Of a DNA stretch of 39,012 nucleotides, positions 1,913 to 37,579 are shown in pieces. Numbering within the stretch: the first letter of the stretch is position 1; each line of letters begins with the position of its first letter. The stretch lies in the IMG/VR virus record IMGVR_UViG_3300033148_003855, positions 1-39,012 of that record; one strand, given 5' to 3'. The notes under the pieces were generated by a model that was not told where the DNA came from, made no database searches, and saw nothing but the letters and a program-made list of their open reading frames with translations. The DNA is from a virus. The translations under genes were made by a program, and so were the position numbers.

Positions 1913-2037
1913 AAGTAAAAGAGTTAAAGAAAAAATTGATTAATGGATGGGCTTTTCCTGATGGCATTATTGAGATTGATGATTTTAATATAGATGAATT
2001 TTGTAGGTGGTTGATTAAAGTTTTTAAGAGAAAATAA
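1909..2037 (+). CDS. Small hypothetical protein, 42 aa
   Basis: A 42-residue product from ATG 1909, overlapping the stop of the membrane peptide, to TAA 2035-2037, whose last base is the first base of the glycosyltransferase ATG. It has a basic N-terminus (MKVKELKKKL), an acidic middle (IIEIDDFNIDEF) and a short amphipathic end. No family was recognised. The tight overlaps on both sides make translation likely and place it at the head of the glycan island. Confidence 0.45.
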   Translation: MKVKELKKKLINGWAFPDGIIEIDDFNIDEFCRWLIKVFKRK

Positions 2038-2924
2038 TGAAAGTTTATTTGCCTTGTGATTCCAAAATGAGTTTAGGGGGTGGCTGGAGGTTTAGAGAGA
2101 ACCTGATTAAAGGTGCTGAGAGCATGGTTGATATGGATATCGTAGATAGTTTAGAGGAGGCCGATATTTCATTGATTGCGGGAGCAACCATGATACTTCC
2201 CGAAACTTTTACCAAGTTGAAAGAGCATGGAAAAGTTGTGTTGAGACTTGATGGTATACCAGAGGGTTGGAGAAATGAGGGCATGCGTACTTGGGGAAGA
2301 TTTAAGCATTATTTTAAGGAAAGTGATGGGGTGGTTTGCCAAAGTGAGTTTGTGAGAAAAACAACTTTTAATTGGCTGTATTCCATAATGGGCAACCATC
2401 CAGTAATGAATGTAATTATGAACGGGGTTGACAAATCAATTTTTAAGCCTGATGGGGATAAGCTGAGTTTTGGTTGTCGGAATGTTGTGTTAAATGTTAA
2501 TAGCCGAAAGGATGAGAATAAGCGGATTGAGGAGGTTATCGCTAGATATAGGTTTGAGAAATTAAAGGATAATAGGCTATTTTTATTGTTGGCTGGTAAA
2601 TACCCTACCTATTTAAGAGAGAATGATTTTGGATTGTATGATTATCAGAAAGGTCAAGATTGGGATTATCTGGGGATGATTGAGAGCAAAGAAAAATTAG
2701 CGGAGTTAATGCGATCTTGTGATGAGTTTTGGTTTCCTAGCTTTGCTGATCCTTGTCCAAATGTTTTAATTGAGGCGTTGCATTGTGGAGTAGAGGCTTG
2801 CTTTTTGGATGGTTTTGGCGGATCAAGAGAAATATATAATTTATTTGAAGGTGGTTATGATTTTGGTCTAAAAAATATGGCTAAGAAATATTATGAATTT
2901 TTTAAAGAGGTGCTAAATGGTTAA
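2037..2924 (+). CDS. Glycosyltransferase, GT4-like
   Basis: A 295-residue GT-B fold glycosyltransferase. The C-terminal half carries the family 4 donor-binding signature: FPSFADPCPNVLIEALHCG (about residues 233-251), with the acidic pair spaced as in retaining GT4 enzymes. A helix around VVLNVNSRKDENKRIEEVI resembles the first part of the nucleotide-sugar-binding domain. At 295 residues it is shorter than typical 350-400 aa GT4 enzymes, with an abbreviated N-terminal acceptor domain. No signal peptide or membrane span, so cytoplasmic. It opens an island of similar genes. Donor and acceptor are unknown. Confidence 0.8.
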   Translation: MKVYLPCDSKMSLGGGWRFRENLIKGAESMVDMDIVDSLEEADISLIAGATMILPETFTKLKEHGKVVLRLDGIPEGWRNEGMRTWGRFKHYFKESDGVVCQSEFVRKTTFNWLYSIMGNHPVMNVIMNGVDKSIFKPDGDKLSFGCRNVVLNVNSRKDENKRIEEVIARYRFEKLKDNRLFLLLAGKYPTYLRENDFGLYDYQKGQDWDYLGMIESKEKLAELMRSCDEFWFPSFADPCPNVLIEALHCGVEACFLDGFGGSREIYNLFEGGYDFGLKNMAKKYYEFFKEVLNG

Positions 2925-3084
2925 AATGTTAAAAGTAGATTATAAAAATAGCGGTTTTGAGTTATTGTTTAGATTCCTTGGTTGGATTTTGGGTTTTATG
3001 TTAATAATTACTATCCCCTGGGTGATAAACGACATGATTAGTTATTTTGCCAAAGGGTTCAGGATATTCTATGTCAAAAAGTAA
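2917..3084 (+). CDS. Small membrane protein, 55 aa
   Basis: ATG 2917 lies inside the last codons of the glycosyltransferase and the frame ends at TAA 3082-3084. Residues about 16-38 (LLFRFLGWILGFMLIITIPWV) form one clear transmembrane segment with a short charged start and a basic C-terminus (FYVKK). It sits between glycosyltransferases and could anchor or organise them at the membrane, though this is inference. No family was recognised. Confidence 0.5.
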   Translation: MVKMLKVDYKNSGFELLFRFLGWILGFMLIITIPWVINDMISYFAKGFRIFYVKK

Positions 3085-3292
3085 ATGTCAACATTCTAGT
3101 TCTATGGCCTGTACTTTTGTGTATCCTGAAAATAAAGAGGTGGCTGTGTGTCCTGATTGTTGTCGGTTACATTGGTTAGAGACTGGCGAAGATGTAAAGG
3201 ATAAAAGCGTTATTAGGAGATGGATACATTCTAGTGATCGTAATCTTCAAGAGGCTCAGAATTTTAATTTATGGAGACTGTTAGATGAGTAA
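3071..3292 (+). CDS. Small zinc-ribbon-like protein
   Basis: A 73-residue protein starting at ATG 3071 (MSKSKCQH); a longer in-frame start upstream at 3047 would add 8 residues. It has a Cys/His pattern suited to a metal-binding knuckle: CQHSSSMAC near the N-terminus and CPDCCRLHWLE about 20 residues later. The remainder is a charged helix ending in WRLLDE. The stop overlaps the methyltransferase start at 3285. A related pattern (CEHLH and CTDCG) occurs in the 5440 gene, so both may belong to a small zinc-binding accessory family of this island. The function is unknown. Confidence 0.5.
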   Translation: MSKSKCQHSSSMACTFVYPENKEVAVCPDCCRLHWLETGEDVKDKSVIRRWIHSSDRNLQEAQNFNLWRLLDE

Positions 3293-3863
3293 ATCAAGAG
3301 AGCAAATTAACCAATATCTAAGCCAGATAGATATTACTGGTAAAACCGTTTTAGATGTTGGGGTACAGAATAATCCGGCCAGGAAATATACAAAAGGGAA
3401 ACCAGAAAAATATATGACTTTAGATATTGATAAGGAATGGAAGCCCGACGTGATTTGTGATCTGAACTTTTTGATGTCGGATTTATTAAGAAAGGAAACT
3501 ATAAAATTTGATGTAGTTTTCTGTCTAGAGGTTATGGAGCATTGTTGGGATCCGTTTAGCGTAATAAGAAATTTATTTGATTGGACTAAGAAAGGTGGCG
3601 TTTGTTATATCTCCGTTCCGTTTATTAATCCTTTGCATGACAAGTGGGATTATCTCCGTTATACCCCCGAATGGTTTGAAAAAGTCTTGCCTCTTGTTGG
3701 CTTTAAGAAAGTTGTGGTAAAAAAGAGAATGGCTACTGTTGGGATGTTGGATCTAATGAATTTTTACAGAAGTGAGGGGTTGCGGATGAGCAAGATTAGA
3801 TTAAAAGCAGGTCAGGCTAAAGATCAAGCATTGATTGGTTTATTTGTTTGTGCTTATAAATGA
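3285..3863 (+). CDS. SAM-dependent class I methyltransferase
   Basis: A 192-residue protein with Rossmann methyltransferase motifs: TVLDVGVQ (residues 21-28) as the glycine-rich SAM loop, TLDID (45-49) with the acidic ribose-binding position, and FDVVFCLEVMEH (75-86), which closely matches the motif of small-molecule/glycan methyltransferases (FD.V.....LEH). Motif I is weakened, with VQNN replacing the usual GxG. It may methylate sugars or another small substrate rather than DNA, since no DPPY-type motif is present. It overlaps genes on both sides, including ATGA with the next glycosyltransferase. Confidence 0.78.
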   Translation: MSKSREQINQYLSQIDITGKTVLDVGVQNNPARKYTKGKPEKYMTLDIDKEWKPDVICDLNFLMSDLLRKETIKFDVVFCLEVMEHCWDPFSVIRNLFDWTKKGGVCYISVPFINPLHDKWDYLRYTPEWFEKVLPLVGFKKVVVKKRMATVGMLDLMNFYRSEGLRMSKIRLKAGQAKDQALIGLFVCAYK

Positions 3864-5443
3864 GAGTATTAATAGTAGTTGACAAAATCCCCTCCGCCAT
3901 ATGGGTGTGTGGTGCCAGACCCATGGAGAGGCTTAGAAAGTGGTGTGACGTGGATATTGTAGCAGTTCATCCCAAACGGCCGTCTAATGAGCAACTAGAT
4001 GATTTTAAGGCGAAAGCTGAAAAGGCCGATATAATTGATTTTCAGTATTGGAAAAGTGCCGAAATGTTGTTGAGTACGTTTCCGTTTTTGAAAGATAAAC
4101 CCAAGGTGCTTACTCATCATAATCCCTATGATGTGGACAGAGAAGATTGGTTTAAGAAGTATGACAAGGTGATAGTCAAAAATCAAACCCAAAAGAAAAC
4201 AATGGTTAAGGCTTTTCGAAAAGAGCCTTTGGTTATACCGCATACGACTAACTTGGGGTTCTTTGAATTTCAAAGAGAATATCCAAAAGGAAGATTTAAG
4301 GTTTTGATGGTGGTGGCTAGAATCGAAGGGAAAAAGGGTGTGTTAGAGGTGGCTCAAGCGTGTCGGAAGACTAAGACGGATTTTATATTAGTCGGGCGTA
4401 TTTCTGATATGAACTATGTTAGGGAGATTATGGGAGTTGCTGGGGATTATATTGATTTTAGGCAGGATATAACCGACGAAGATTTAAAAAAAGCTTATTA
4501 TGAGGCTCACCTTTTAGTAAATAATTCCGTTGATAGTTTTGAGAGTGGGACGTTACCTCATTTGGAGGCGATGGCTTGTGGTGTGCCTGTCTTGACTAGA
4601 AATGTTGGACTGGTGCCTGACATGTTTAATGGCAAAAATATGGTTGTTAGGCAGGGTACAAAAGATAATATCAAGGAATTGGCTAGTTATATTGAATTGT
4701 TAAAAAACGACAGAGCCAAATGTATGCAACTAAGAGAGGAGGGATTTAAATCTGTTTTGAGCAGGGATGATGAATATTGTGCTTTGAGATATTATAGAGT
4801 TTATCGGGAAGTATTAGGGAAAAAGCCTTTGGTATCGGTGATCGTTCCTACCTATAACAGAGCTAAAATATTAATCACTTCTTTGGTGGGGTTGGCTAGA
4901 CAGGATTATCCGAATATTGAGATTATTGTTGTGGATGATGGGTCGGATGATGATACGGAAAGTGCTGTTATGGGTTTTAAGAAAATGGCGGATATCCCAA
5001 TTAGATATATTAAACAAGTTAAAATGGGATATGGACTAGCTAGAGCCAGAAATATGGGTGTGGTAGAAGCCAATGGGGATATCCTTGTATTTCAGGACGA
5101 TAGGTATTTAATGAACAAAAACGCAATTAGTGAATTAGTAAAGGCATTGAAACCCAAGACTTGGATATTTGGAGACAAAGGGGCTCAAAAGAAGTCTTTT
5201 GTGGAGAATTTTAGTTGTGTTTATAAAAAAGATTTAGTAGATATTGGAATGTTTAATGAGAGGATTATTTACTATGGTGCGATGACCAGGGAGATGATTA
5301 ATAGAATGGGTGGTAAGATAAAATACGAATATTGTCCTAGTGCCAAATGTACAGTATTATTGGACAGTAAAAGTAAATTCAAGAAAAAATCTGAAATTGT
5401 TAAAGCTAAATTATTATTATGGAAATTAAGAGGAAACAAATGA
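3860..5443 (+). CDS. Bifunctional glycosyltransferase, GT4-GT2 fusion
   Basis: A 527-residue, two-domain enzyme. Residues 1 to about 310 form a GT-B, GT4-like domain: VLMVVARIEGKKGVLEV opens the donor-binding half and ESGTLPHLEAMACGVPVLTR (near 227-245) is the family signature. From about residue 320 a GT-A, GT2 domain begins with SVIVPTYNRAKIL, followed by IIVVDDGSDDDT (near 358) and a DDR metal-site motif in LVFQDDRYL (near 412). Two activities in one chain suggest successive transfer of two sugars. The GT2 half is short, about 205 residues. No membrane span is visible. The start overlaps the methyltransferase stop (ATGA). Confidence 0.87.
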   Translation: MRVLIVVDKIPSAIWVCGARPMERLRKWCDVDIVAVHPKRPSNEQLDDFKAKAEKADIIDFQYWKSAEMLLSTFPFLKDKPKVLTHHNPYDVDREDWFKKYDKVIVKNQTQKKTMVKAFRKEPLVIPHTTNLGFFEFQREYPKGRFKVLMVVARIEGKKGVLEVAQACRKTKTDFILVGRISDMNYVREIMGVAGDYIDFRQDITDEDLKKAYYEAHLLVNNSVDSFESGTLPHLEAMACGVPVLTRNVGLVPDMFNGKNMVVRQGTKDNIKELASYIELLKNDRAKCMQLREEGFKSVLSRDDEYCALRYYRVYREVLGKKPLVSVIVPTYNRAKILITSLVGLARQDYPNIEIIVVDDGSDDDTESAVMGFKKMADIPIRYIKQVKMGYGLARARNMGVVEANGDILVFQDDRYLMNKNAISELVKALKPKTWIFGDKGAQKKSFVENFSCVYKKDLVDIGMFNERIIYYGAMTREMINRMGGKIKYEYCPSAKCTVLLDSKSKFKKKSEIVKAKLLLWKLRGNK

Positions 5444-5766
5444 AAAAAAAAGAACATACAGTCAGTTATGAATATAAACAATGTGAACATTTACATTTAC
5501 GGAAAATAGCACCGATGTGGTTTTATTGTACGGATTGCGGTCGGGTTTTTTACTTCATGTTTTCCATACAGTATTCATTTGAGGAGGCTGTTAAGTATTG
5601 GGCTGGGGTTATTGAGAGTTTGGATAAAGTAAAGCAGGCTGTTCAAAAATGTGAGAGAAAAGAAATGCGTAGAGAAAAAAAGGCCGATAGGGAGGCTATT
5701 AAAAATTATGTGGAGAAACATGATCCCCTTCAAAAAAATAAACATAACAAGAAAGCTAATTGCTAG
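5440..5766 (+). CDS. Small zinc-ribbon protein with basic coiled tail
   Basis: A 108-residue protein. I chose ATG 5440 because it overlaps the previous stop (ATGA) and has AGAGG about 8 bases upstream; an in-frame ATG at 5419 would extend it. The N-terminal part has CEHLHL then CTDCGRVF, a probable four-ligand zinc knuckle. The rest is a strongly charged helix rich in Lys, Glu and Arg. Its 3' end overlaps the aminotransferase start by 47 bases in another frame. Function unknown; it may be an accessory or nucleic-acid-binding factor. Confidence 0.55.
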   Translation: MKKKEHTVSYEYKQCEHLHLRKIAPMWFYCTDCGRVFYFMFSIQYSFEEAVKYWAGVIESLDKVKQAVQKCERKEMRREKKADREAIKNYVEKHDPLQKNKHNKKANC

Positions 5767-6682
5767 GGTTTCAAACTTGTTGGCGACAGGAATGATTGGG
5801 TTGGGAAGTGAGGTTTTTGAGTTTGAAAAGAACTTAGCGGAGTATGTCGGAAGTAAATATTGTGTGGCAACCGACAGTTGTACTTCTGCCTTGTTTATGT
5901 CTTTACGTTATGAGGCCAAAGAAAGCAAATTGAGGGTAGGCGTGCCATCGATGACTGTTCCTCTTGTTGGAGACGCAGTAATTGAGGCGGGTTGTGAGTT
6001 GTATTTTACTGATAAAACAAATTGGGTTGGTTCTGTTTACAGACTAGAGGGGACTGATGTTTGGGATTCTGCCCATGAACTGGAAAGAAATATGTTTAAA
6101 AAGTTTGGTAAAAAGGCCAAAGTTTGTTTTAGCTTTTATCCGACTAAAAGTATCGGTAGTGCTGATGGTGGAGCTATTTGCACTAACGACAAAGAGTTTG
6201 CGGATTGGGCTAGGTGTGCGGTTACTTACGGTCGGGATCAGGGGCAGAAATACAAGAACAGTTGGGAATATGAGATTAAAATGAAGGGCTGGAAACGCCA
6301 CTATACTAATTTACAAGCTGTTATTTGTGATGAGCAGTTAAAAAAACTGGATCAGGTTAATAAACGTCGTAAAGAAATTAAAAATAAATTTAATTCTGCT
6401 TTTCAGCTTAATAACAAAAGCTTATACATTTACAGACTGAAGGTTAAAAATAGAGACAAATTTGTTGACCAAATGACAAAAGAGGGGATACAGTGTGGGG
6501 TTCATTATAGACCCCTGCATACCATGAAAGCATTTGAAGGGATTGATTTTGAGGGGGATAAGGCAAAAACTGAAAGAGATTATCGACATACGGTTAGTAT
6601 TCCATTTTACAACCGACTGACCGATGATGAAGTAAGATATATAATTAAAAAGGTTAAGAAATATGCCCACTTCGTTAGATAA
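5720..6682 (+). CDS. DegT/DnrJ/EryC1-type sugar aminotransferase
   Basis: A PLP-dependent aminotransferase of the family that makes amino-sugar nucleotides. I chose ATG 5720 because the typical N-terminus (MIPFKKINIT) begins there, giving 320 residues, shorter than the usual 360-400. Visible motifs include DSCTSALF in the phosphate-binding region, the DSAHE pair (Asp116 and His119) that contacts the PLP ring, and SFYPTKSIGSADGGA with the Schiff-base Lys143. The C-terminus keeps GVHYRPLH and SIPFYNRLTDDEV, both characteristic. It converts a keto-sugar nucleotide to an amino sugar, probably on a host-made donor. It is the only sugar-biosynthesis gene seen here. Confidence 0.88.
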   Translation: MIPFKKINITRKLIARVSNLLATGMIGLGSEVFEFEKNLAEYVGSKYCVATDSCTSALFMSLRYEAKESKLRVGVPSMTVPLVGDAVIEAGCELYFTDKTNWVGSVYRLEGTDVWDSAHELERNMFKKFGKKAKVCFSFYPTKSIGSADGGAICTNDKEFADWARCAVTYGRDQGQKYKNSWEYEIKMKGWKRHYTNLQAVICDEQLKKLDQVNKRRKEIKNKFNSAFQLNNKSLYIYRLKVKNRDKFVDQMTKEGIQCGVHYRPLHTMKAFEGIDFEGDKAKTERDYRHTVSIPFYNRLTDDEVRYIIKKVKKYAHFVR

Positions 6683-7187
6683 TCACAGAGAGAACATTAG
6701 AAGGTTGGTTGAGAAGTATAAGATTAAAACTGTTTTAGAGTTAGGATTGGGGAAGGGAATTGCTACAGTAGAATTTTTGAAGTGTGGTGTTGAGGTTACA
6801 ACAATTGACATTAAAAGGTCGGTTGATACAGAAAAATATATCAAAACTATGTTGCCAGATGAAAAATGGACTTTTATTTTGGGTGACGTAAAGGATGTTT
6901 TACCTGAAATTGGGAAGAAATACGATTTAGTTTATATGGATATTGCCTATTATGACAAGCTTGAGTATGGTTCAAAGAAGGCTTTTGAATATGGGAAAGA
7001 ATGTTGGAGGAGGGATATTGAAATTTGTTGGAAGTTAGCTGAAAAGGTTTTGGTTGTTAATGATTATATTAATGATGTGCAAAAAAGAACTGCTCCAAGT
7101 GTTGCATTTAATGAGTTTGCGTGTAGGCTGAATAAACCCTTTACTGTTTACCCTACTAGAGGGGGGATGGCGGTGTTATGCAAGTAG
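6663..7187 (+). CDS. Class I SAM-dependent methyltransferase-like protein
   Basis: A 174-residue protein whose ATG lies within the end of the aminotransferase. VLELGLGKGIATVEFL (about residues 20-35) is a good SAM-binding motif I, VTTIDIKRS supplies the acidic residue of motif II, and YDLVYMDIAYYDK marks the motif IV strand. This matches the Methyltransf_24-like group, which modifies small molecules or sugars. It may methylate a sugar in the glycan made by the neighbouring enzymes. The C-terminus has no known extra domain. Confidence 0.7.
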   Translation: MPTSLDNHRENIRRLVEKYKIKTVLELGLGKGIATVEFLKCGVEVTTIDIKRSVDTEKYIKTMLPDEKWTFILGDVKDVLPEIGKKYDLVYMDIAYYDKLEYGSKKAFEYGKECWRRDIEICWKLAEKVLVVNDYINDVQKRTAPSVAFNEFACRLNKPFTVYPTRGGMAVLCK

Positions 7188-7771
7188 CGATTGTTATTGC
7201 TCAGTCTTATCGGACGATTAAGAAACAGACCTTTAAGTGTTTAGATAAAACAGAGGGTAACTGGAAATTGTTTACCAAGGACGGAATGGAGGACGGAGAG
7301 ATGAAAACCGTCAACTCACTTATAGATAGCATTGATTTTGATTGGGATTTTTTGGTGAGGATGGATGACGATATGTGGCTAAGTCCTGATTGGTTGAGGT
7401 GTATGTTGGCGATATATAAGAAAAACCCCGATGTTTGGTTATTGGGGGGCTGTAAGTACCCAACCCACAAGGTTTTAGAGGTCAGAGATGATTGTTTTGT
7501 TATGGATATTTGTGCAGGTAATCATTGGTTAATTTCTAAGGAGAGATATGAAAAGGTCGGTAGGTTTTTTGAGGACAAGGGTCAGATAGCAGAGGATGTT
7601 AGGTATTGCCGTCGTATTCAGGAAATGGGAGGAAAGGTGGCTTGTTTAAAAGACTTAACTAAAGTGGTTCATTGTGGCTTGGTGGGTACGAACGGTAAAG
7701 GCAGAAGTCCTTATGTTACTGGTTATTGTCAGGCACTTTGTGACGTTGTGGGGGCAAAATGCGTAAAATAG
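7178..7771 (+). CDS. Glycosyltransferase, GT2-like (GT-A fold)
   Basis: A 197-residue protein starting at ATG 7178, inside the end of the previous gene. It has the GT-A core: FLVRMDDDMWLSPDWL with the DDD metal/nucleotide-binding motif, GGCKYP, then CAGNHWLISKERYEKVG and AEDVRYCRRIQEMGGKVACL, the usual end of a GT2 catalytic domain where the ED motif provides the base. It is compact for the family and lacks a C-terminal membrane region, so it is probably soluble. Acceptor and sugar are unknown. Confidence 0.75.
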   Translation: MQVAIVIAQSYRTIKKQTFKCLDKTEGNWKLFTKDGMEDGEMKTVNSLIDSIDFDWDFLVRMDDDMWLSPDWLRCMLAIYKKNPDVWLLGGCKYPTHKVLEVRDDCFVMDICAGNHWLISKERYEKVGRFFEDKGQIAEDVRYCRRIQEMGGKVACLKDLTKVVHCGLVGTNGKGRSPYVTGYCQALCDVVGAKCVK

Positions 7772-8637
7772 TTTATTTTGATCATACTACTGGGGGGAAG
7801 CATAGAATTGATACTCTTGCTGAGGCTATGGGTTTGCAGAGAATCAGGGTGTTTGATGACAGTAGGTTTGGTGAGAATGATATTTGTTTTTGTGAGGGGT
7901 TGAATTTAAATGCTATCGCTTCCAGCCAAACGGGGAAAGGCAAGGTTGTTTTGAGATTAAATGCCATGGAGTTATACAAAGGGACTGGAATAGATAGAAT
8001 TAACTGGGGGAATGTCAAGGCGTTATTTGTGCATGGCCAACACTTAAAAGATTATTTTTTGGAAATTCATAAAAAGCTACCTGCGGATAAAATTCACGCT
8101 ACTGGATTGATAATTGATTTAGATAAGTTTAAGTTTTCAGAGCATGGGGGTAAGAAAATAGCTGTTAATAGTGAGGTTCATTGGCGAAAGGGGGTACAGA
8201 GAATACCTGATTTATTAGAGAGACTACCTGCGGAGTATGAGATTTATCACATAGGCCAGATTATTAATTACGACGCCATGAATTATGTTAATTGGAGACT
8301 GAAGGAACTGGGGCTGGAGGATAGATACCACTATCAGGGGACAACAAAAGACGTTGTGGGGTGGTTAAGGGATAAAGACTATATCTTTCACCCATCGGGG
8401 ACTGAGGGCTGTCCTAGAGCCGTAGGTGAAGCCATGGCGGTTGGTTTGATACCTGTTGTTTTTAATTACAGAGGGGCTACAAATCAACAGCCTTATGCGT
8501 GGGAGACTATCGGTAAGGCTGTTGAAAGTATCTTGAGGCCTACCATAACTCCCCAAGAGTGTCGCCAATGGGTGGTTGATCATTATTCTAAGGAAGTGGT
8601 TGTTAAAAAGTTTAATGATGTTTTATGTACAATTTAG
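7759..8637 (+). CDS. Glycosyltransferase, GT4-like
   Basis: A 292-residue GT-B protein that starts 13 bases before the previous stop. It shows the GT4 donor-site pattern FHPSGTEGCPRAVGEAMAVG followed by LIPVVFNYRGA, and a strand-turn NSEVHWRKGVQRIPDLLERL at the beginning of the C-terminal domain. The N-terminal half is short (KIVYFDHTTGGKHRIDTL). It is similar in size and plan to the 2037, 9771 and 10733 genes, suggesting duplication and divergence inside the island. Confidence 0.78.
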   Translation: MRKIVYFDHTTGGKHRIDTLAEAMGLQRIRVFDDSRFGENDICFCEGLNLNAIASSQTGKGKVVLRLNAMELYKGTGIDRINWGNVKALFVHGQHLKDYFLEIHKKLPADKIHATGLIIDLDKFKFSEHGGKKIAVNSEVHWRKGVQRIPDLLERLPAEYEIYHIGQIINYDAMNYVNWRLKELGLEDRYHYQGTTKDVVGWLRDKDYIFHPSGTEGCPRAVGEAMAVGLIPVVFNYRGATNQQPYAWETIGKAVESILRPTITPQECRQWVVDHYSKEVVVKKFNDVLCTI

Positions 8638-9731
8638 ACCATATCAAATATAAGTTTGACGAAGGTAGGGGGAAAGTTCCGCCAGAGATTAGGGGGAAGT
8701 GTTGTTTTATTTTAACTGAAGGAATAGATAAAATTAGGAAAGATTTTGGTAGACCGAAAGCTGTTTTGAAAGTATTTTTCACCGAAGAAACCACTACTTG
8801 GGGTGATCCAGATTGGGGTGGGTACGGATTAGATAGAAATAGAGAAATAGGCAGGGTAAGCACATTACGTGAGGCAACAATTATTCAGAATTTAGCTTGG
8901 ATGAATGGTCATGCTCCTAGAATTTATGGGCTGGTGAAGGTTGAAAGAAACGGAAAAATTTATCCAGCTCAAGTCACTGAGTTTATAGATGGTGAAATTG
9001 GGATGAGAGGTGTTGTCAAGAAGTTGGAGGAGATAGAAACTCCGTTAGTTAAGTTTGGAGTTAGGACTTGTCATAATAACTTAGTTAGCCAGAGGGATTT
9101 CATTGACGGGAAGTTGATTGACTTTCAAGGGTTTACTTTTAGAAACGGTGCCAAAGAGAAGATTGTGGCATATATTAGAGAGACGGGGAAATATGGTAAG
9201 GCTCACTATCAGTCTATTCCTGAATTGGGTGTGAGTGCCAAACCTAGAGACACGGAGAAAAGAATTAAAACAATGGGCTTAGACAAGGTAGACTTCAAGG
9301 GAAAGAATGTTTTAGACATAGGGTGTAATTCTGGGGTGTTTTGCAATTACGCCTCTAAGAGAGGCGCTAAGAGGGTGCTAGGTGTAGATATGCCGAACAA
9401 TGTAAAGGCGGCGCAAGTCTTGGCGTTTTATCTGGGTTATCATAATAACGATTATTTGCCGTTTGATTTAAGTGTTGGGCAACCCCCCGTGGATTTTGAT
9501 ATTGATATTACTCTTTTTTTATCAATGGTTTGTCATATTGGATTGCCTGATTGGATAGGTGAGATAACGAAGGAATTATTGGTGATGGAGGAGAACGCTA
9601 GGGGGAGCAAATACGTTACTGACAAATGGTGCAAAGAACTGTTAAAATGGTTTAATGATGTTTATATCTTTGGGTACACTAATGACCATAATAAAAATTT
9701 TCCCAAACCAGTAATATGGGCGAAAAAGTAA
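8625..9731 (+). CDS. Kinase-like domain fused to a SAM methyltransferase
   Basis: A 368-residue two-part protein. Residues 1 to about 185 resemble a minimal protein-kinase-like fold of the LPS-kinase or aminoglycoside-phosphotransferase kind: AVLKVFF with Lys49, LREATIIQN with Glu83, HNNL (150-153) at the catalytic-loop position and LIDFQGF (164-170) at the DFG position. The usual catalytic Asp of HGD is replaced by Asn, so activity is uncertain. From about 220, KNVLDIGCNSGVFCNYA and RVLGVDM form a class I methyltransferase. The pairing suggests modification of one glycan substrate by phosphorylation and methylation, which is inference. It overlaps the upstream gene by 13 bases. Confidence 0.68.
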   Translation: MYNLDHIKYKFDEGRGKVPPEIRGKCCFILTEGIDKIRKDFGRPKAVLKVFFTEETTTWGDPDWGGYGLDRNREIGRVSTLREATIIQNLAWMNGHAPRIYGLVKVERNGKIYPAQVTEFIDGEIGMRGVVKKLEEIETPLVKFGVRTCHNNLVSQRDFIDGKLIDFQGFTFRNGAKEKIVAYIRETGKYGKAHYQSIPELGVSAKPRDTEKRIKTMGLDKVDFKGKNVLDIGCNSGVFCNYASKRGAKRVLGVDMPNNVKAAQVLAFYLGYHNNDYLPFDLSVGQPPVDFDIDITLFLSMVCHIGLPDWIGEITKELLVMEENARGSKYVTDKWCKELLKWFNDVYIFGYTNDHNKNFPKPVIWAKK

Positions 9732-9756
9732 ATATTTCCTATCTACAAGTTATTAT

Positions 9757-9763
9757 AAGGAGG
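9757..9763 (+). promoter_or_regulatory. Strong Shine-Dalgarno site
   Basis: AAGGAGG lies 7 bases before the ATG at 9771. It is one of the strongest ribosome-binding sites in the window and follows the only sizeable gap (about 40 bases) in the second half of the island. It fixes the start of the next glycosyltransferase and shows that the host ribosome uses a conventional anti-Shine-Dalgarno sequence. Confidence 0.85.
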
Positions 9764-9770
9764 AATAGCC

Positions 9771-10736
9771 ATGGGCAAATCTAAATTACGCCAAGGGTAT
9801 CGGGTAATTGGAATCCCATGGCATGTCGGCCACCAGTATGAAATTGCCAATATGTCTTTTATTGAGCAGTATGATTTGCTTATAAATCCTTATAGAAAGT
9901 GGGGGACTAAATCCAGACCATTTCCTGATAAGTGTAATTGGGTAACTCATTATGAACCAGGGAAATATGATTTTGCTATTCTTCATTTAGATCAACAGTG
10001 TGTTAATTCACGTGTAGGTAAAGGGGAATTATATAAGCAGGTCAATGAGGTTATTCAGGATATTCCCAAAATTGTTATTAATCACATGACCCCACTACAT
10101 GACAGTTTGCCTGATGATGAGGTAATTAAAAGAGTAAAAGAATTGGTTGGCAAGAATTTTATGATTGTTAACACCTATGAAGCCAGAAAAATGTGGGGAT
10201 GGGGACATACGATTATTCATGGAATGAATGTAGATGACTGGAGGTCTAACCCCAAAGAACCTAGGGCTACCATTTATGTTTCACCTGCTGGAATGGACAA
10301 GGCTTATAGAAGAGAGATTTTAAGAAATACAGTCAATTTGTTAAATGAATGGGGTTTTAAATTTTACTGGATTGGGATTGATGTTAAGTTTTCTAAATTT
10401 AATGAATATAGAGACTGGTTGAGTAGAAGCCTTGTGTATCTTAATTTAACCCATCAATCGCCACGACCTAGAGCAAGAACCGAAGCCATGTTGTCTGGAT
10501 GTTGTATTGTTACCAATAAACATCAAGATGCCGATACCTATATCAAAGACGGGATTAATGGATTTTTGGTTGATGAAGATCCTGTACAGATAGCCACATT
10601 AGTATCTGAATTATTGACTAGTCGTACCAGAGAGGCATTAAGGGTTGGAAAAGCTGGTAGAGAATTTGCCCGTAAAGAATTTAGTAGAGAGAATTTTGAA
10701 AAACAGTGGTTGGAAGTTATAAAGGAAGTATTATGA
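9771..10736 (+). CDS. Glycosyltransferase, GT4-like
   Basis: A 321-residue protein with a canonical ribosome-binding site. The N-terminal part (GIPWHVGHQYEIANM) differs from its neighbours, and an ATIYVSPAGMDKAYRREIL strand-helix starts the donor domain. The C-terminal half has PRPRARTEAMLSGCCIVTNK and DTYIKDGINGFLVDEDPVQIA, the GT4 signature followed by the typical nucleotide-sugar loop and final helix. There are no membrane segments. Acceptor is unknown. The stop overlaps the next ATG (ATGA). Confidence 0.8.
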   Translation: MGKSKLRQGYRVIGIPWHVGHQYEIANMSFIEQYDLLINPYRKWGTKSRPFPDKCNWVTHYEPGKYDFAILHLDQQCVNSRVGKGELYKQVNEVIQDIPKIVINHMTPLHDSLPDDEVIKRVKELVGKNFMIVNTYEARKMWGWGHTIIHGMNVDDWRSNPKEPRATIYVSPAGMDKAYRREILRNTVNLLNEWGFKFYWIGIDVKFSKFNEYRDWLSRSLVYLNLTHQSPRPRARTEAMLSGCCIVTNKHQDADTYIKDGINGFLVDEDPVQIATLVSELLTSRTREALRVGKAGREFARKEFSRENFEKQWLEVIKEVL

Positions 10737-11572
10737 AAGTAGGGCTAATTAGCATGCAATTTTATGACAACCGTCCAAAGGGTTCTGTTGGTAGTTCTAG
10801 GATTAGGGGTGATTGGATTGCTAAATACTGGGATGAGTGTGAATTGTATTCTACTGGCAAGAGGTATGACGTGCTTATATTTCAAAAAGCCTATTGGGAG
10901 GAGATGGTTAAGAGGTTCAAGGGGATTAAAGTTTTCGACGCCTGCGATCCTGATTGGCTGGAACATAGGCCAGTTATTGAGGTTATCCGAAATTGTGACG
11001 GGGTGGTCACCTCATCTGAGGCGTTGGCCAAACAAATCCGAAAATTTGATATAGGAGGGAAACCTGTTATGTGTATTCCTGATAGAGTGGATTTGGAGTG
11101 GTCTAAACCTGTTCATGGGGTACACACTGGAGAGGCTAAGAGTTGTGTTTATTTTGGCTATTCGGGCAACGCTAGGGTTGTGCTGGATTCGGCGATTGAT
11201 TCATTGAGGAAGTATGGTATTGAGTTGACGGTTATTAGTGACCAGCCATATCATTCGGCAGATCATTTTGTTAGGTATGACGTTGAAACCGTGAATGAGG
11301 AGATAGTTAATCATGATTTTGTTTTGTTACCGCCAGCACCATCTAATAATTATCGGTTTAAGTTTAAGAGCAATAACAAGACCATACAATCAAAAGCACT
11401 TGGAATGCCCGTAGTACATCGGGGGGACGATTTAAAAAAATATATGAGTGGTAAAGAAAGAGAAAAAGCCAGAAAACAAGGATTAGAGGAAGTTAAAAAA
11501 CTGTGGGATGTGCGACTAAGTGTCGTTGCCTACAAAAAATTTATTAAACGGCTTATTGACAAAAGGCGTTAA
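10733..11572 (+). CDS. Glycosyltransferase-like protein
   Basis: ATG 10733 overlaps the previous TGA and gives 279 residues; an alternative in-frame start at 10706 is unlikely because it lies deep in the upstream gene. The N-terminus (MKVGLISMQFYDNRPKGSVGSSRIRGDWIAKYW) is typical of the acceptor domain of GT4-like enzymes that open with a strand and an S-S-R/RG loop. FDACDPDWLEH and DGVVTSSEALAKQIRKF match the middle of such proteins. The C-terminal signature is weak (SKALGMPVVHRGDD). It closes the island. Confidence 0.65.
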   Translation: MKVGLISMQFYDNRPKGSVGSSRIRGDWIAKYWDECELYSTGKRYDVLIFQKAYWEEMVKRFKGIKVFDACDPDWLEHRPVIEVIRNCDGVVTSSEALAKQIRKFDIGGKPVMCIPDRVDLEWSKPVHGVHTGEAKSCVYFGYSGNARVVLDSAIDSLRKYGIELTVISDQPYHSADHFVRYDVETVNEEIVNHDFVLLPPAPSNNYRFKFKSNNKTIQSKALGMPVVHRGDDLKKYMSGKEREKARKQGLEEVKKLWDVRLSVVAYKKFIKRLIDKRR

Positions 11573-12655: not shown

Positions 12656-13156
12656 ATGGGAAGACCAACAAAATATAAACCAGAATATTGTAAAACAATA
12701 ATAGAGTACTTTGATGTACCTGCCAGTTTTGAGACTCCAGTTGAAAAACAAAACAAAGATGGCACGGTAGAAACAAGTGTTAAATTTATTCCATCCGACT
12801 TGCCACTATTAAGTGGTTTTGCTGCAAGTATAGGTGTTTGTAGAGATACTGTTTATGAATGGGCCACTGGTAGGGACAAAGATGGAGAACTAAAACATCC
12901 TGATTTTTCCTACGCCTTAAAAATGGCTAAAGATTTACAAGAGAAACTGTTAGTTACTAATGCCATGAAGGGTTTGTATAATTCTACCTTTGCAATATTT
13001 ACGGCTAAGAATATATTGGGATGGAGAGACAAAAGAGAGGTTGAGAGTATTCACTCCGGTGAGGTGAGATTCAATATTAGCGATTTGGTTAAAAAAGCAA
13101 AAGATGAATTATCAAAAGAAAGCCAAGACAATAATCAAGGCGATTCAGAGCTTTAA
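12656..13156 (+). CDS. terS: Terminase small subunit
   Basis: A 166-residue protein with a start (MGRPTKYKPEYC) typical of phage small terminase subunits, which often open with this GRPTKY motif. A helix-turn-helix region (LSGFAASIGVCRDTVYEWATG) follows and recognises the packaging site. The middle (ALKMAKDLQEKLLVTNAMKGLYN and AIFTAKNILGWRDK) is the oligomerisation helix region, and the C-terminus is acidic. It pairs with the large subunit directly downstream, with a 53-base overlap in another frame. A TAAGAT -10-like hexamer ends 5 bases before the ATG; no good -35 was seen. Confidence 0.88.
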   Translation: MGRPTKYKPEYCKTIIEYFDVPASFETPVEKQNKDGTVETSVKFIPSDLPLLSGFAASIGVCRDTVYEWATGRDKDGELKHPDFSYALKMAKDLQEKLLVTNAMKGLYNSTFAIFTAKNILGWRDKREVESIHSGEVRFNISDLVKKAKDELSKESQDNNQGDSEL

Positions 13157-14489
13157 TTACTTTATATTTAATATATTCAGTTTAAGTTTTGACAATTTTG
13201 TGGGTGGTGAGTTTCCTGCCAAGACAGCTAACTTCTTACAGAATCATTTAAAAACTTGTCGGGTATCAGCCAAAGATCATTTTAAGTCTACTTCTTTATA
13301 TGCATATGTGATGTGGGATTTGTTAAGGAAAGCGGATAGCAAGTTTGATATGGAGGCTCATTATTTCTCATACAAGGGGGAGATGGCCAGTTATCATATA
13401 GGCAAGATTAAAGATTTAATTAAACTGAATCCTTATTACGAAGACTTAATTGATCTGAAAACTACCGCCGAAGGAATTATCAAATATCGATGGAAAGGTA
13501 AAGAGGCTAATTTTACATTACACCCACAGGGATTATTAGGGTTTAAGAGAGGATTACATTGTGGTTGGGGGGTGTTTGTGGATGATCCGTTTCAAGACCC
13601 TGCCAATAAGTTAGACCCCAAAATCATTCACACTGTTAATTATGTAATGAAAACGCAGATATTGGACATCCCCAACAAAGGGGCGTTCCTGCATATAGTC
13701 GGAACTCCACAGACTAAGGACGACTTCTTTTTTGATAAGAAGTTTTTGGGGAGATTTGAGAGCAGGATATTGCCTGCCGTTGTCAACGCTAAAACTAAAG
13801 AAGTGTTATGGCCAGAGCATTTTGACTATAAGGAACTAATGAAACGGAGAGAAGAACGTGGAGAGAGGGTGTTTAATCAAGAGTATCTTTGCTCACCTGT
13901 TTATTCTGAAAATTCATTCTTTAGTGATGATCAGGTTACCAAGATGATGTTTGATATTTTGAATTATCCATTTAATAAAAAGCGTGAAAATCCGAAGGAG
14001 TATGACATTATTGGCGGATGGGATTTAGGGAAACACAGACATCCTGCCCATTTCTCTGTATTTGAAGTTAGGGGCGACAAGGAAACAGGTGACTGGACAC
14101 AGATACACCAGCACTTCTTTGACAAGGTAGATTACAAAGATCAAATTGCTTATTGTGATATTGCCATTGATAGTTTTGGGATTGACAGACTTTATTATGA
14201 CAATACTAGAGGAGAGATTGAGGTAATAGAGGAAACCGGCAATTTAAAACCCGAATATAGACCTGTTAATTTGGGTCTTAAAAAGAAAAATGGATTGGCG
14301 ACTGAGTTTGATAAAAAGAAAACAACTGGTAAGATTAAGTTGATTGCTGATGATAGGCAAAAGCGGTCGATATTGGCGGTACAGAATGATTTGAAAGCCA
14401 TTGAAACCGTTGATGGCCATGGTGACGCATTTTGGAGTATTGCGTTGGCTATGGAATACTTATTAGAGCCTAGAATTAGTGTATACTAA
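13104..14489 (+). CDS. terL: Terminase large subunit
   Basis: A 461-residue packaging motor protein. The ATPase domain has an atypical Walker A (CRVSAKDHFKSTS, residues 52-64), keeping the Lys-Ser-Thr of PRDHGKS-type terminases but with Phe in place of the last Gly. The Walker B VFVDD is at 157-161. The C-terminal RNase H-like nuclease is marked by IIGGWDLGKHRHPAHF (near 303-318) and by DGHGDAFWSIALA (near 436), which supply the metal-binding acids. Length is normal. The first 20 or so residues overlap terS, so the real start may be slightly later. Confidence 0.92.
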   Translation: MNYQKKAKTIIKAIQSFNYFIFNIFSLSFDNFVGGEFPAKTANFLQNHLKTCRVSAKDHFKSTSLYAYVMWDLLRKADSKFDMEAHYFSYKGEMASYHIGKIKDLIKLNPYYEDLIDLKTTAEGIIKYRWKGKEANFTLHPQGLLGFKRGLHCGWGVFVDDPFQDPANKLDPKIIHTVNYVMKTQILDIPNKGAFLHIVGTPQTKDDFFFDKKFLGRFESRILPAVVNAKTKEVLWPEHFDYKELMKRREERGERVFNQEYLCSPVYSENSFFSDDQVTKMMFDILNYPFNKKRENPKEYDIIGGWDLGKHRHPAHFSVFEVRGDKETGDWTQIHQHFFDKVDYKDQIAYCDIAIDSFGIDRLYYDNTRGEIEVIEETGNLKPEYRPVNLGLKKKNGLATEFDKKKTTGKIKLIADDRQKRSILAVQNDLKAIETVDGHGDAFWSIALAMEYLLEPRISVY

Positions 14490-36783: not shown

Positions 36784-36877
36784 TATGGAGAATTGTAATG
36801 TTTCACTATATAATATACTCAATCGACCCCTATTTGCGTGCGGTTCTCCATTCAAAAGCAAGTGGGGGTCTTTTTTT
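36784..36877 (+). ncRNA. Short terminated transcript, about 94 nt
   Basis: The promoter at 36748-36777 and the terminator at 36825-36877 bracket a transcript of about 94 nt. It may be a small regulatory RNA or an attenuated leader. A 29-codon frame inside (ATG 36798, GGAG at 36787-36790, TGA 36885-36887) runs through the terminator stem, so translation could open the hairpin. I cannot separate these two roles. The element lies between a repressor and a tRNA-like locus. Confidence 0.45.
36825..36877 (+). terminator. Rho-independent terminator
   Basis: GACCCCTATTTGC (36825-36837) pairs with GCAAGTGGGGGTC (36858-36870) over 13 base pairs, including two G-T pairs, around a 20-base loop. Seven T follow (36871-36877). 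It would stop transcripts from the promoter at 36748 before the tRNA-like region. Confidence 0.85.
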
Positions 36878-36896
36878 GGTACATTGACAATTTGAT

Positions 36897-37055
36897 CTAG
36901 TAGTGGCGGAATAGGTAGACGCTATCAAAGAGCTTGCTATGCAACCCACTATTGAAACACTATATGGATAAAGGTTGGGATAGGGGATAATCTTATTTAT
37001 TTGTAAGTTTATCTCCCAGCCCAACTATGCAAGGTGCAAATCCTTGCCTACTAGA
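36897..37055 (+). tRNA. Atypical tRNA-Leu-like element, no clear anticodon
   Basis: CTAGTAG (36897-36903) pairs perfectly with CTACTAG (37048-37054), with A37055 as discriminator. TG and a D arm follow (GCG at 36906-36908, loop GAATAGGTAGA, CGC at 36920-36922), as in leucine tRNAs. The T arm is GCAAGG, loop TGCAAAT, CCTTGC (37029-37047): 6 bp, with G instead of U at the Psi55 position. Between the D and T arms are 106 bases instead of about 32. A long hairpin (36973-37026, GTTGGG with CCCAAC) sits at the variable-arm position. The anticodon arm could only be TATC/GATA with a loop of about 40 nt. No CCA is encoded. A decayed, intron-containing or specialised tRNA-like RNA is possible. Confidence 0.5.
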
Positions 37056-37114
37056 TTAAGTTGCCAATCTTTAAAATTGGTAGATAGCAGACCGCTTGCC
37101 GGCCGTATAAAAAT

Positions 37115-37579
37115 ATGAAATACAACAATTACTTAAAATCAGGACACTGGAAAAAGACAAGAAGTTCCTATTATCAAAAGAAAGAGAAGGTTTGTCGTAT
37201 ATGTGGAAACGACAAAAACATAAACTTACACCACAGACAATATAGAGACAATGACGGAAATAGTATTCTTTATAAAGAGAAAATCTATCAACTTTATGCA
37301 CTTTGTGGAAGGTGTCATACTCTTTGGCATACATACCACGGCAGGAGAAAAACAAAATTAAGTAATTTGTTACGTGCAAGAAGGTTATACCAAAACGGAG
37401 TGGATATTAACAAGGCTATATTTTTGTGTTGTGGACAAGGAGATGCTTATGCGATGACTTGGAAAGCCATTAAGAAAAAAAAGAAAATTATTAACCACGG
37501 CCTGTATCGTGGGGGCGAAAGCCAAGGGAATACAGGCGACCAAACGACCGACCGACCGAGAGCGTCTCAATTTTTGTGA
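37115..37579 (+). CDS. HNH endonuclease
   Basis: A 154-residue protein with an HNH zinc core: CRICGNDKNINLHHRQY (Cys27, Cys30 and His39-His40) and YALCGRCHTLWH (Cys64, Cys67, His68). TATAAA lies 3 bases before the ATG but no convincing -35. The core ends near residue 72; the remaining 80 residues are basic and low in pattern, and the DNA there has a palindromic hairpin with a GAAA loop (37500-37537). Such freestanding HNH genes are mobile. It lies directly after the tRNA-like element, so its target or origin may involve that locus. Confidence 0.8.
   Translation: MKYNNYLKSGHWKKTRSSYYQKKEKVCRICGNDKNINLHHRQYRDNDGNSILYKEKIYQLYALCGRCHTLWHTYHGRRKTKLSNLLRARRLYQNGVDINKAIFLCCGQGDAYAMTWKAIKKKKKIINHGLYRGGESQGNTGDQTTDRPRASQFL

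Follow-up and report, generated by a model that had tools for sequence, protein, structure and literature searches.

Evidence for a conserved family of non-decoding tRNA-like RNAs in phages of Bacillota, possible mimics of tRNA

Noncoding RNAs that resemble tRNA are already known, which permits us to place the element described here within an established kind. The Y RNA YrlA is a noncoding RNA with a tRNA-mimicking module consisting of a D and a T arm, and mascRNA, a tRNA-like element located beside MALAT1 in mammals, is processed by cuts of the RNase P/RNase Z type. In Staphylococcus, a non-proteinogenic tRNA-Gly, which has an intact anticodon arm and is aminoacylated, contains GUGC in place of GTPsiC in its T loop. 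The element investigated in this study resides in a 39-kb virus record with tailed-phage genes (39,012 nucleotides, hereafter the window). With class II tRNA-Leu it shares the sequence of the D arm, the order of acceptor and T arm, a large structure at the position of the variable arm and the signature residues of the D and T loops, but it lacks an anticodon arm, contains a T stem of six base pairs and the combination G55/A17, conserves neither N73 nor CCA in its family and there often shows an acceptor helix that is longer by 1–2 bp. The tRNA-like ends that surround a long insert in place of the anticodon arm are reminiscent of tmRNA, from which the element differs by its real D stem; an assignment as tmRNA was rejected, as neither RF00023 nor RF04321 of Rfam matched the window and a tmRNA search with ARAGORN matched just one of 359 elements. 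Genuine tmRNAs adjoin the element in some phages. Like mascRNA, it is a tRNA-like element without functional anticodon arm, presumably within a longer transcript; unlike mascRNA, it is phage-borne, contains a large variable domain and lacks CCA. The GUGC motif of the T loop is shared with the staphylococcal tRNA-Gly, whereas the retention of G18 and G19 and the missing anticodon set the element apart. Finally, ROOL, GOLLD, drum and mcrA are likewise structured phage RNAs found in tRNA islands or beside HNH genes, but their structures and sequences are different and none of them is tRNA-like. Judged from sequence, the notion that the RNA works like a tRNA mimic appears to survive these comparisons, whereas the notion that it is a tRNA, a tmRNA or a Y RNA does not.

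The general architecture of the element, which occupies positions 36897–37055 of the plus strand, had been recognized in a sequence-only reading and is recovered in its predicted fold (Table 1). That reading had described an acceptor stem of seven perfect pairs, a leucine-type D arm, a spacing of 106 nucleotides between D and T arms, a long hairpin at the variable-arm site, G at the position of Psi55 and the lack of any seven-base loop with U33 in the anticodon position, all of which are found in the sequence and its fold. The described T arm is also present, although its stem (GCAAGG-TGCAAAT-CCTTGC) comprises six instead of five pairs. The D arm has the sequence TGGCGGAATAGGTAGACGC. The perfect acceptor pairing CTAGTAG/CTACTAG, as read directly between 36897–36903 and 37048–37054, is in fact part of a helix of 16 pairs (36888–36903 with 37048–37063) that exceeds the standard seven by nine, whereas in most family members the outward extension amounts to just 0–2 pairs. 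At -50.9 kcal/mol, the predicted fold is more stable than that of shuffled sequences (-37.2 kcal/mol, z -3.5), none of 200 of which equalled it. Exactly two nucleotides (AU) separate the 3' end of the long hairpin from the T stem, a spacing shared by most family members, and the central domain of the window element has no relative among 359 elements. At normal thresholds neither ARAGORN nor Rfam, including its tRNA family RF00005, reported anything on the window, and a lax Rfam search of the region returned just short matches to miRNA and plant-virus families that are most likely due to chance. In the surroundings, a promoter-like site followed by a terminator-like hairpin is found just 5' of the element (36786–36876), neither of which is more frequent than in shuffled sequence, and an inverted repeat (CCTGTAT/ATACAGG) followed by ACCGACCGACCGA repeats is located near the end of the HNH reading frame (37497–37560).

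Table 1. Parts of the tRNA-like element and its immediate context in the window.
Feature	Position	Strand	Basis and remarks
Acceptor helix extension, 5' strand	36888–36896	+	Pairs with 37055–37063, G-U included; 9-pair extension, read from sequence
Acceptor-like stem, 5' strand CTAGTAG	36897–36903	+	Direct reading, fold; stem covaries in 61 homologues
U8 G9 and tRNA-Leu-type D arm	36904–36922	+	Stem 36906–36908/36920–36922; loop GAATAGGTAGA with A17 G18 G19
Segment at anticodon-arm position	36923–36972	+	Fold: no 5-bp/7-nt anticodon arm, just short alternative hairpins
Long hairpin at variable-arm position	36973–37026	+	Closing stem 36973–36979/37020–37026; inner stems 36983–36996/37003–37016
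AU linker, central domain to T stem	37027–37028	+	AU in 89% of 359 members
6-bp T arm, loop UGCAAAU (G55)	37029–37047	+	Sequence, fold, family scan, covariation
Acceptor-like stem, 3' strand CTACTAG; position 73 is A	37048–37055	+	Followed by TTA, not CCA
Acceptor helix extension, 3' strand	37056–37063	+	Continues from the 37055–36896 pair
HNH endonuclease ORF (context, outside the RNA)	37115–37579	+	PHROG HNH families, 8.5e-09

The wide distribution of this architecture became evident when viral contigs were scanned for a T loop 28–151 nucleotides past a Leu D arm, with no demand for acceptor pairing and with either G or T allowed at base 55 in the first scan. G55 is present in 390 matches, of which 368 contain at least six of seven acceptor pairs in the register set by a six-pair T stem, compared to four in the neighbouring register, and 365 form all six T-stem pairs. 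In 61 cores with mutually different acceptors, 99.4% of the cells of the acceptor, D and T stems hold standard pairs and two-sided changes are found at 13 of 16 pairs, with 294 cells changed on both sides (77 in shuffles) and a score of 0.78 (0.21 in shuffles), while pairing falls to about 40% if partners are slid by one column. Since these cores were prefiltered at six of seven acceptor pairs, the unfiltered count provides the fairer test of the acceptor. Six of its seven positions show all four Watson-Crick pairs, and the D stem varies in a compensatory manner between GCG/CGC, GUG/CAC and GAG/CUC, the latter two of which were obtained in a scan that barred C at one D-stem position; in the element of phage PSA the first D-stem pair is A-U. 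The conservation of the D arm and the T loop is partly imposed by the search patterns, which is not the case for A17, A57, the AU linker, the acceptor and the outer T stem. A17 accompanies G55 in 215 of 218 cases and A57 is found in about 96% of members, and the core of the family combines a tRNA-Leu D arm, A17 with G55, a T stem of six pairs and the AU linker. Hundreds of independent loci repeat this arrangement and show compensatory changes, which is far beyond chance, and it is almost certain that we are dealing with a conserved family of non-decoding tRNA-like RNAs. The window element is one member of this large and apparently undescribed family, for which neither Rfam nor the literature, as covered by open-licence PMC papers, contained an entry or description. 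No element was found in plasmids or in the three fragments identified as terminase-based relatives of the window phage. In a sister set (L017, L043, L067, L075, L096, L105, L404 and others), U55 is combined with a T stem of five pairs and mostly A73; this set contains 56–118 nucleotides between D and T arms and no obvious anticodon, and many of its members have the acceptor AGTCAGG in common while their centres differ. One viral contig (L355) carries a tRNA-Leu-like gene with about 200 extra nucleotides between the same arms, possibly a group I intron.

The properties that would be required for decoding are largely absent from the family. An anticodon-like arm of five pairs with a seven-nucleotide loop could follow the D stem in five of 359 members, in three of them with U33, and members whose centre has a normal length (26–28 nucleotides) also lack such an arm. 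Position 73, which is A in all 33 ordinary tRNA-Leu of the same loci and in the window element, is A in 53%, U in 29%, C in 9% and G in 8% of members, and CCA is absent in 355 of 359. The 12-bp acceptor/T helix and the U54-U55-C56 sequence of tRNA are replaced by a longer T stem and G55, and the tRNA search of ARAGORN reported four of 359 elements at odd internal positions. Without an anticodon arm, decoding by this RNA would be impossible. The elbow has probably been kept, positions 17 and 55 having changed together (A17-G55 or G17-U55), with few events underlying the rarer states, as members with a six-pair T stem and U55 carry G17 in four of five independent-looking cases. In the version found in A511 and P100, the GG of the D loop and C56 were lost together, and in a reduced form of the Enterococcus phages phiFL2A (L124) and IME197 (L527) the acceptor and the G55 T arm are kept while the D-loop GG and the entire centre are lost. 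The elbow is thus not needed in every member, with the latter two phages containing the acceptor/T helix alone and A511 a version without elbow.

In place of the anticodon and variable arms, the family contains a structured centre without conserved sequence, of which we count 287 independent versions with a size ranging from 12 nucleotides (L571) to about 190; upon clustering, 208 of 264 clusters are singletons. In 73% of elements a stem of at least five pairs ends exactly two nucleotides before the T stem (34% in shuffled sequences), an anchoring that weakens once the anchor is shifted. The 5' strand of the anchored stem mostly begins 9–12 nucleotides past the D stem, which leaves room for a mini-hairpin. 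Complementarity of at least six pairs between the 5' segment of the centre and the interior of the stem is enriched (15% compared to 7%), pointing to a pseudoknot in some of the members. In one subfamily, where 97.7% of all cells are paired, eight pairs of the closing and inner stems have changed on both sides with pairing maintained, as has one pair of the pseudoknot. The variable domain thus appears to be hypervariable and often pseudoknotted. A second, canonical T arm is located inside 18 of 287 centres (0.4 in shuffles), and some centres (L317, L320, L281, L288, L308) hold a tRNA-Ile(GAU)-like sequence nested in the tRNA-like RNA. Antisense targets of the centre are no more frequent within 3 kb than in the control.

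The diversity of the centres contrasts with the distribution of the acceptor sequence. Different prophages in one genome, whose centres are unrelated and whose flanks are at background in most pairs, carry the same acceptor in six of seven pairs, with the seventh being off by one base. Similarly, the acceptor ATACTCG and the T stem GCAAGG are common to the Listeria siphophages PSA, B025 and LP-LmcIH1-8, the homburgvirus LP-114 and the A511/P100 myoviruses, whereas their centres are not, and the acceptor GTGCTTG is combined with 18 different centres. Beyond one or two extra acceptor pairs, the flanks of the element contain no conserved columns; acceptor words are in slight excess in these flanks, partly owing to second copies of the element. 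Since unrelated phages of one host have the acceptor in common but neither flanks nor centres, the shell appears tuned to the host. This tuning is not universal, as tandem copies in big phages share the acceptor in just four of 17 pairs (1.9% by chance) and two different acceptors are in use in phages of B. subtilis. We would therefore describe the link between acceptor and host as a tendency rather than a rule, and one that would be most pronounced for Listeria, lactic acid bacteria and Bacillus. We read shared acceptors as probable signs of selection for interaction with a host component, although they could in part result from old transfers or exchange with later divergence of the flanks. 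Multiple copies with differing centres are found in single phages (L338 with four copies, L505, L517, L518 and L256).

The named hosts of element-bearing phages all belong to the Bacillota. Their element typically resides between the gene of an activator (RinA-, ArpU- or sigma-like) and those encoding HNH, TerS or TerL. Across 422 loci, BLAST-linked regulators are located 5' of the element in 96 and 3' in none, and packaging genes 3' in 91 and 5' in eight, with both sets of counts being lower bounds. In large phages the element is instead found in tRNA islands, including those of herelleviruses, and SPbeta-like phages carry it at a distance from terminase genes. In the window the HNH gene follows at 37115, but the terminase genes are located elsewhere (12656–14489), preceded by a long run of glycosyltransferase- and methyltransferase-like reading frames (2037–11572, as judged from translations). 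In annotated records the element occupies an unannotated gap or lies under or beside short hypothetical reading frames, and it was never labelled as RNA in the records examined. ROOL, mcrA or drum RNAs are close to it in some loci, among them a stretch of Listeria phage LMTA-94 (102000–110500, L588) with drum about 750 nucleotides upstream and genes for DUF2828 and a tRNA-splicing ligase downstream. Terminators within 150 nucleotides are found in just 4% of cases upstream and 11% downstream, and a self-terminated small RNA was rejected on these grounds. A match to rliG (RF02415) in L037 was also dismissed, as it covers sequence upstream of the element and little of the element itself and as phage A118 conserves the matched region yet contains no element.

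Together, these features suggest an RNA whose gene would descend from tRNA-Leu. By its sequence, it has kept as a shell the D arm and the coaxial acceptor/T-arm helix, extended to at least 13 pairs, and its anticodon and variable arms have been swapped for a hypervariable, structured and often pseudoknotted domain. This RNA would be produced at the start of the late transcript, or from tRNA islands, and would work in trans as a tRNA mimic, with the conserved shell binding a host factor that recognizes elbow and acceptor helix of tRNA. The variable domain would serve as effector or block normal use, so that the RNA would become a decoy or an adaptor. We consider the chances of this proposal as a whole to be about even, and those of a mimic acting in trans, irrespective of the remainder, to be slightly below. 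Members without an elbow, the incomplete link between acceptor and host and a location that would suit a cis element just as well speak against it. A specialized tRNA mimic, which the sequence-only reading had regarded as a novelty if confirmed, is a plausible description. The further idea that the host-tuned shell provides a chassis for interchangeable effector domains, and thus a modular mimic that seizes or blocks a host factor of tRNA handling or defence late in infection, is more tentative and may well prove incorrect.

The main rival to a tRNA mimic is a cis-acting processing element, whose tRNA-like helix would attract RNase P, RNase Z or both, so that the late transcript is cleaved between activator and packaging genes, as with mascRNA beside MALAT1, and the small RNA is a by-product. 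A location in the late leader with few terminators nearby suits a cis element equally well, as does the same-strand location between the late activator and HNH or terminase genes, and the reduced form of phiFL2A is close to a minimal acceptor/T-arm substrate of RNase P. Moreover, position 74 is enriched in U (55% of members), and 69% contain U at 74 or 75, compared to 40–48% in controls. However, the excess of U74 largely follows from pairing beyond the acceptor: N-1 pairs with N73 in 62% of members where 42% would be expected, and N-2 with N74 in 55% where 45% would be expected. The 5' end of a tRNA is not paired in this way, and the N-1:N73 pairing argues against canonical RNase P and RNase Z ends. 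A helix of 16 pairs in the window and copies in tRNA islands also do not fit well, and processing in cis would require neither a large structured centre nor a host-linked acceptor; we regard it as unlikely. A role in packaging, either as terminase-associated RNA comparable to the pRNA of phi29 or as signal of a cos or pac region, would agree with the gene neighbourhood, with HNH, TerS or TerL just downstream in at least 91 loci and a location of the element within 1 kb of the genome end in the records of PSA, B025 and Ln-9. This role is made improbable by herellevirus tRNA islands and SPbeta-like phages that contain the element at a distance from terminase genes, by the same shell in Listeria phages of unrelated lineages and by the possibility of several copies in one phage.

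We assign a still slightly lower probability to a bacterial Y RNA of the YrlA type acting in concert with a Ro/Rsr protein of the phage. Y RNAs mimic tRNA and share with the element a noncoding nature and the D and T arms, and in a P100-like Listeria phage, where RNA-seq has revealed very abundant noncoding RNAs near tRNA genes, Y RNAs were proposed from these RNAs and an Rsr-like protein (PMC12282133). In the P100-like LMTA-94, a DUF2828 gene is located 3.3 kb downstream of the element. Nevertheless, TROVE (PF05731) was found in none of 50 and DUF2828 in four of 44 element-bearing records, although the host genome could supply Ro/Rsr; the window phage contains neither gene and no Y RNA family of Rfam matches the element, and a Y RNA with Ro or DUF2828 as partner was thus rejected. 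Finally, the D arm is identical to that of genuine tRNA-Leu of some Bacillota, as might be expected if the element were a regular tRNA-Leu interrupted by a small intron, a suppressor tRNA or a tRNA gene in decay. Of the options initially considered from sequence, the non-translating tRNA-like RNA has turned out to be the right one, and neither of the outcomes named there as refuting it occurred: covariation among homologues extends to the acceptor, D and T stems, and no normal tRNA emerges in another register, ARAGORN staying negative whether or not introns are allowed. The strongly varying length of the centre, the lack of conserved splice sites or intron sequence in it and the normal-length members without anticodon arm exclude a small intron; a group I intron is excluded by the lack of Rfam matches and by inserts that are too short and not conserved. 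A decayed gene conflicts with strong covariation and with the coupling of G55, A17 and the six-pair T stem in hundreds of loci. With 99% of members lacking an anticodon arm and with N73 and CCA not being conserved, we consider this group of explanations as practically eliminated.

Collectively, our study describes an RNA found in hundreds of phages, including A511/P100 and PSA of Listeria, phi3T and SBSphiJ of Bacillus and phages of Enterococcus, and it suggests that many viruses of Firmicutes (Bacillota) carry this unannotated RNA gene. Since the RNA would not decode and the part that reads the code has been replaced by a fast-changing folded domain, it presumably serves another job. If it acts as proposed, tRNA mimicry would have a counterpart in phages, and the link of the acceptor stem to the host suggests a specific partner there that could be searched for directly.
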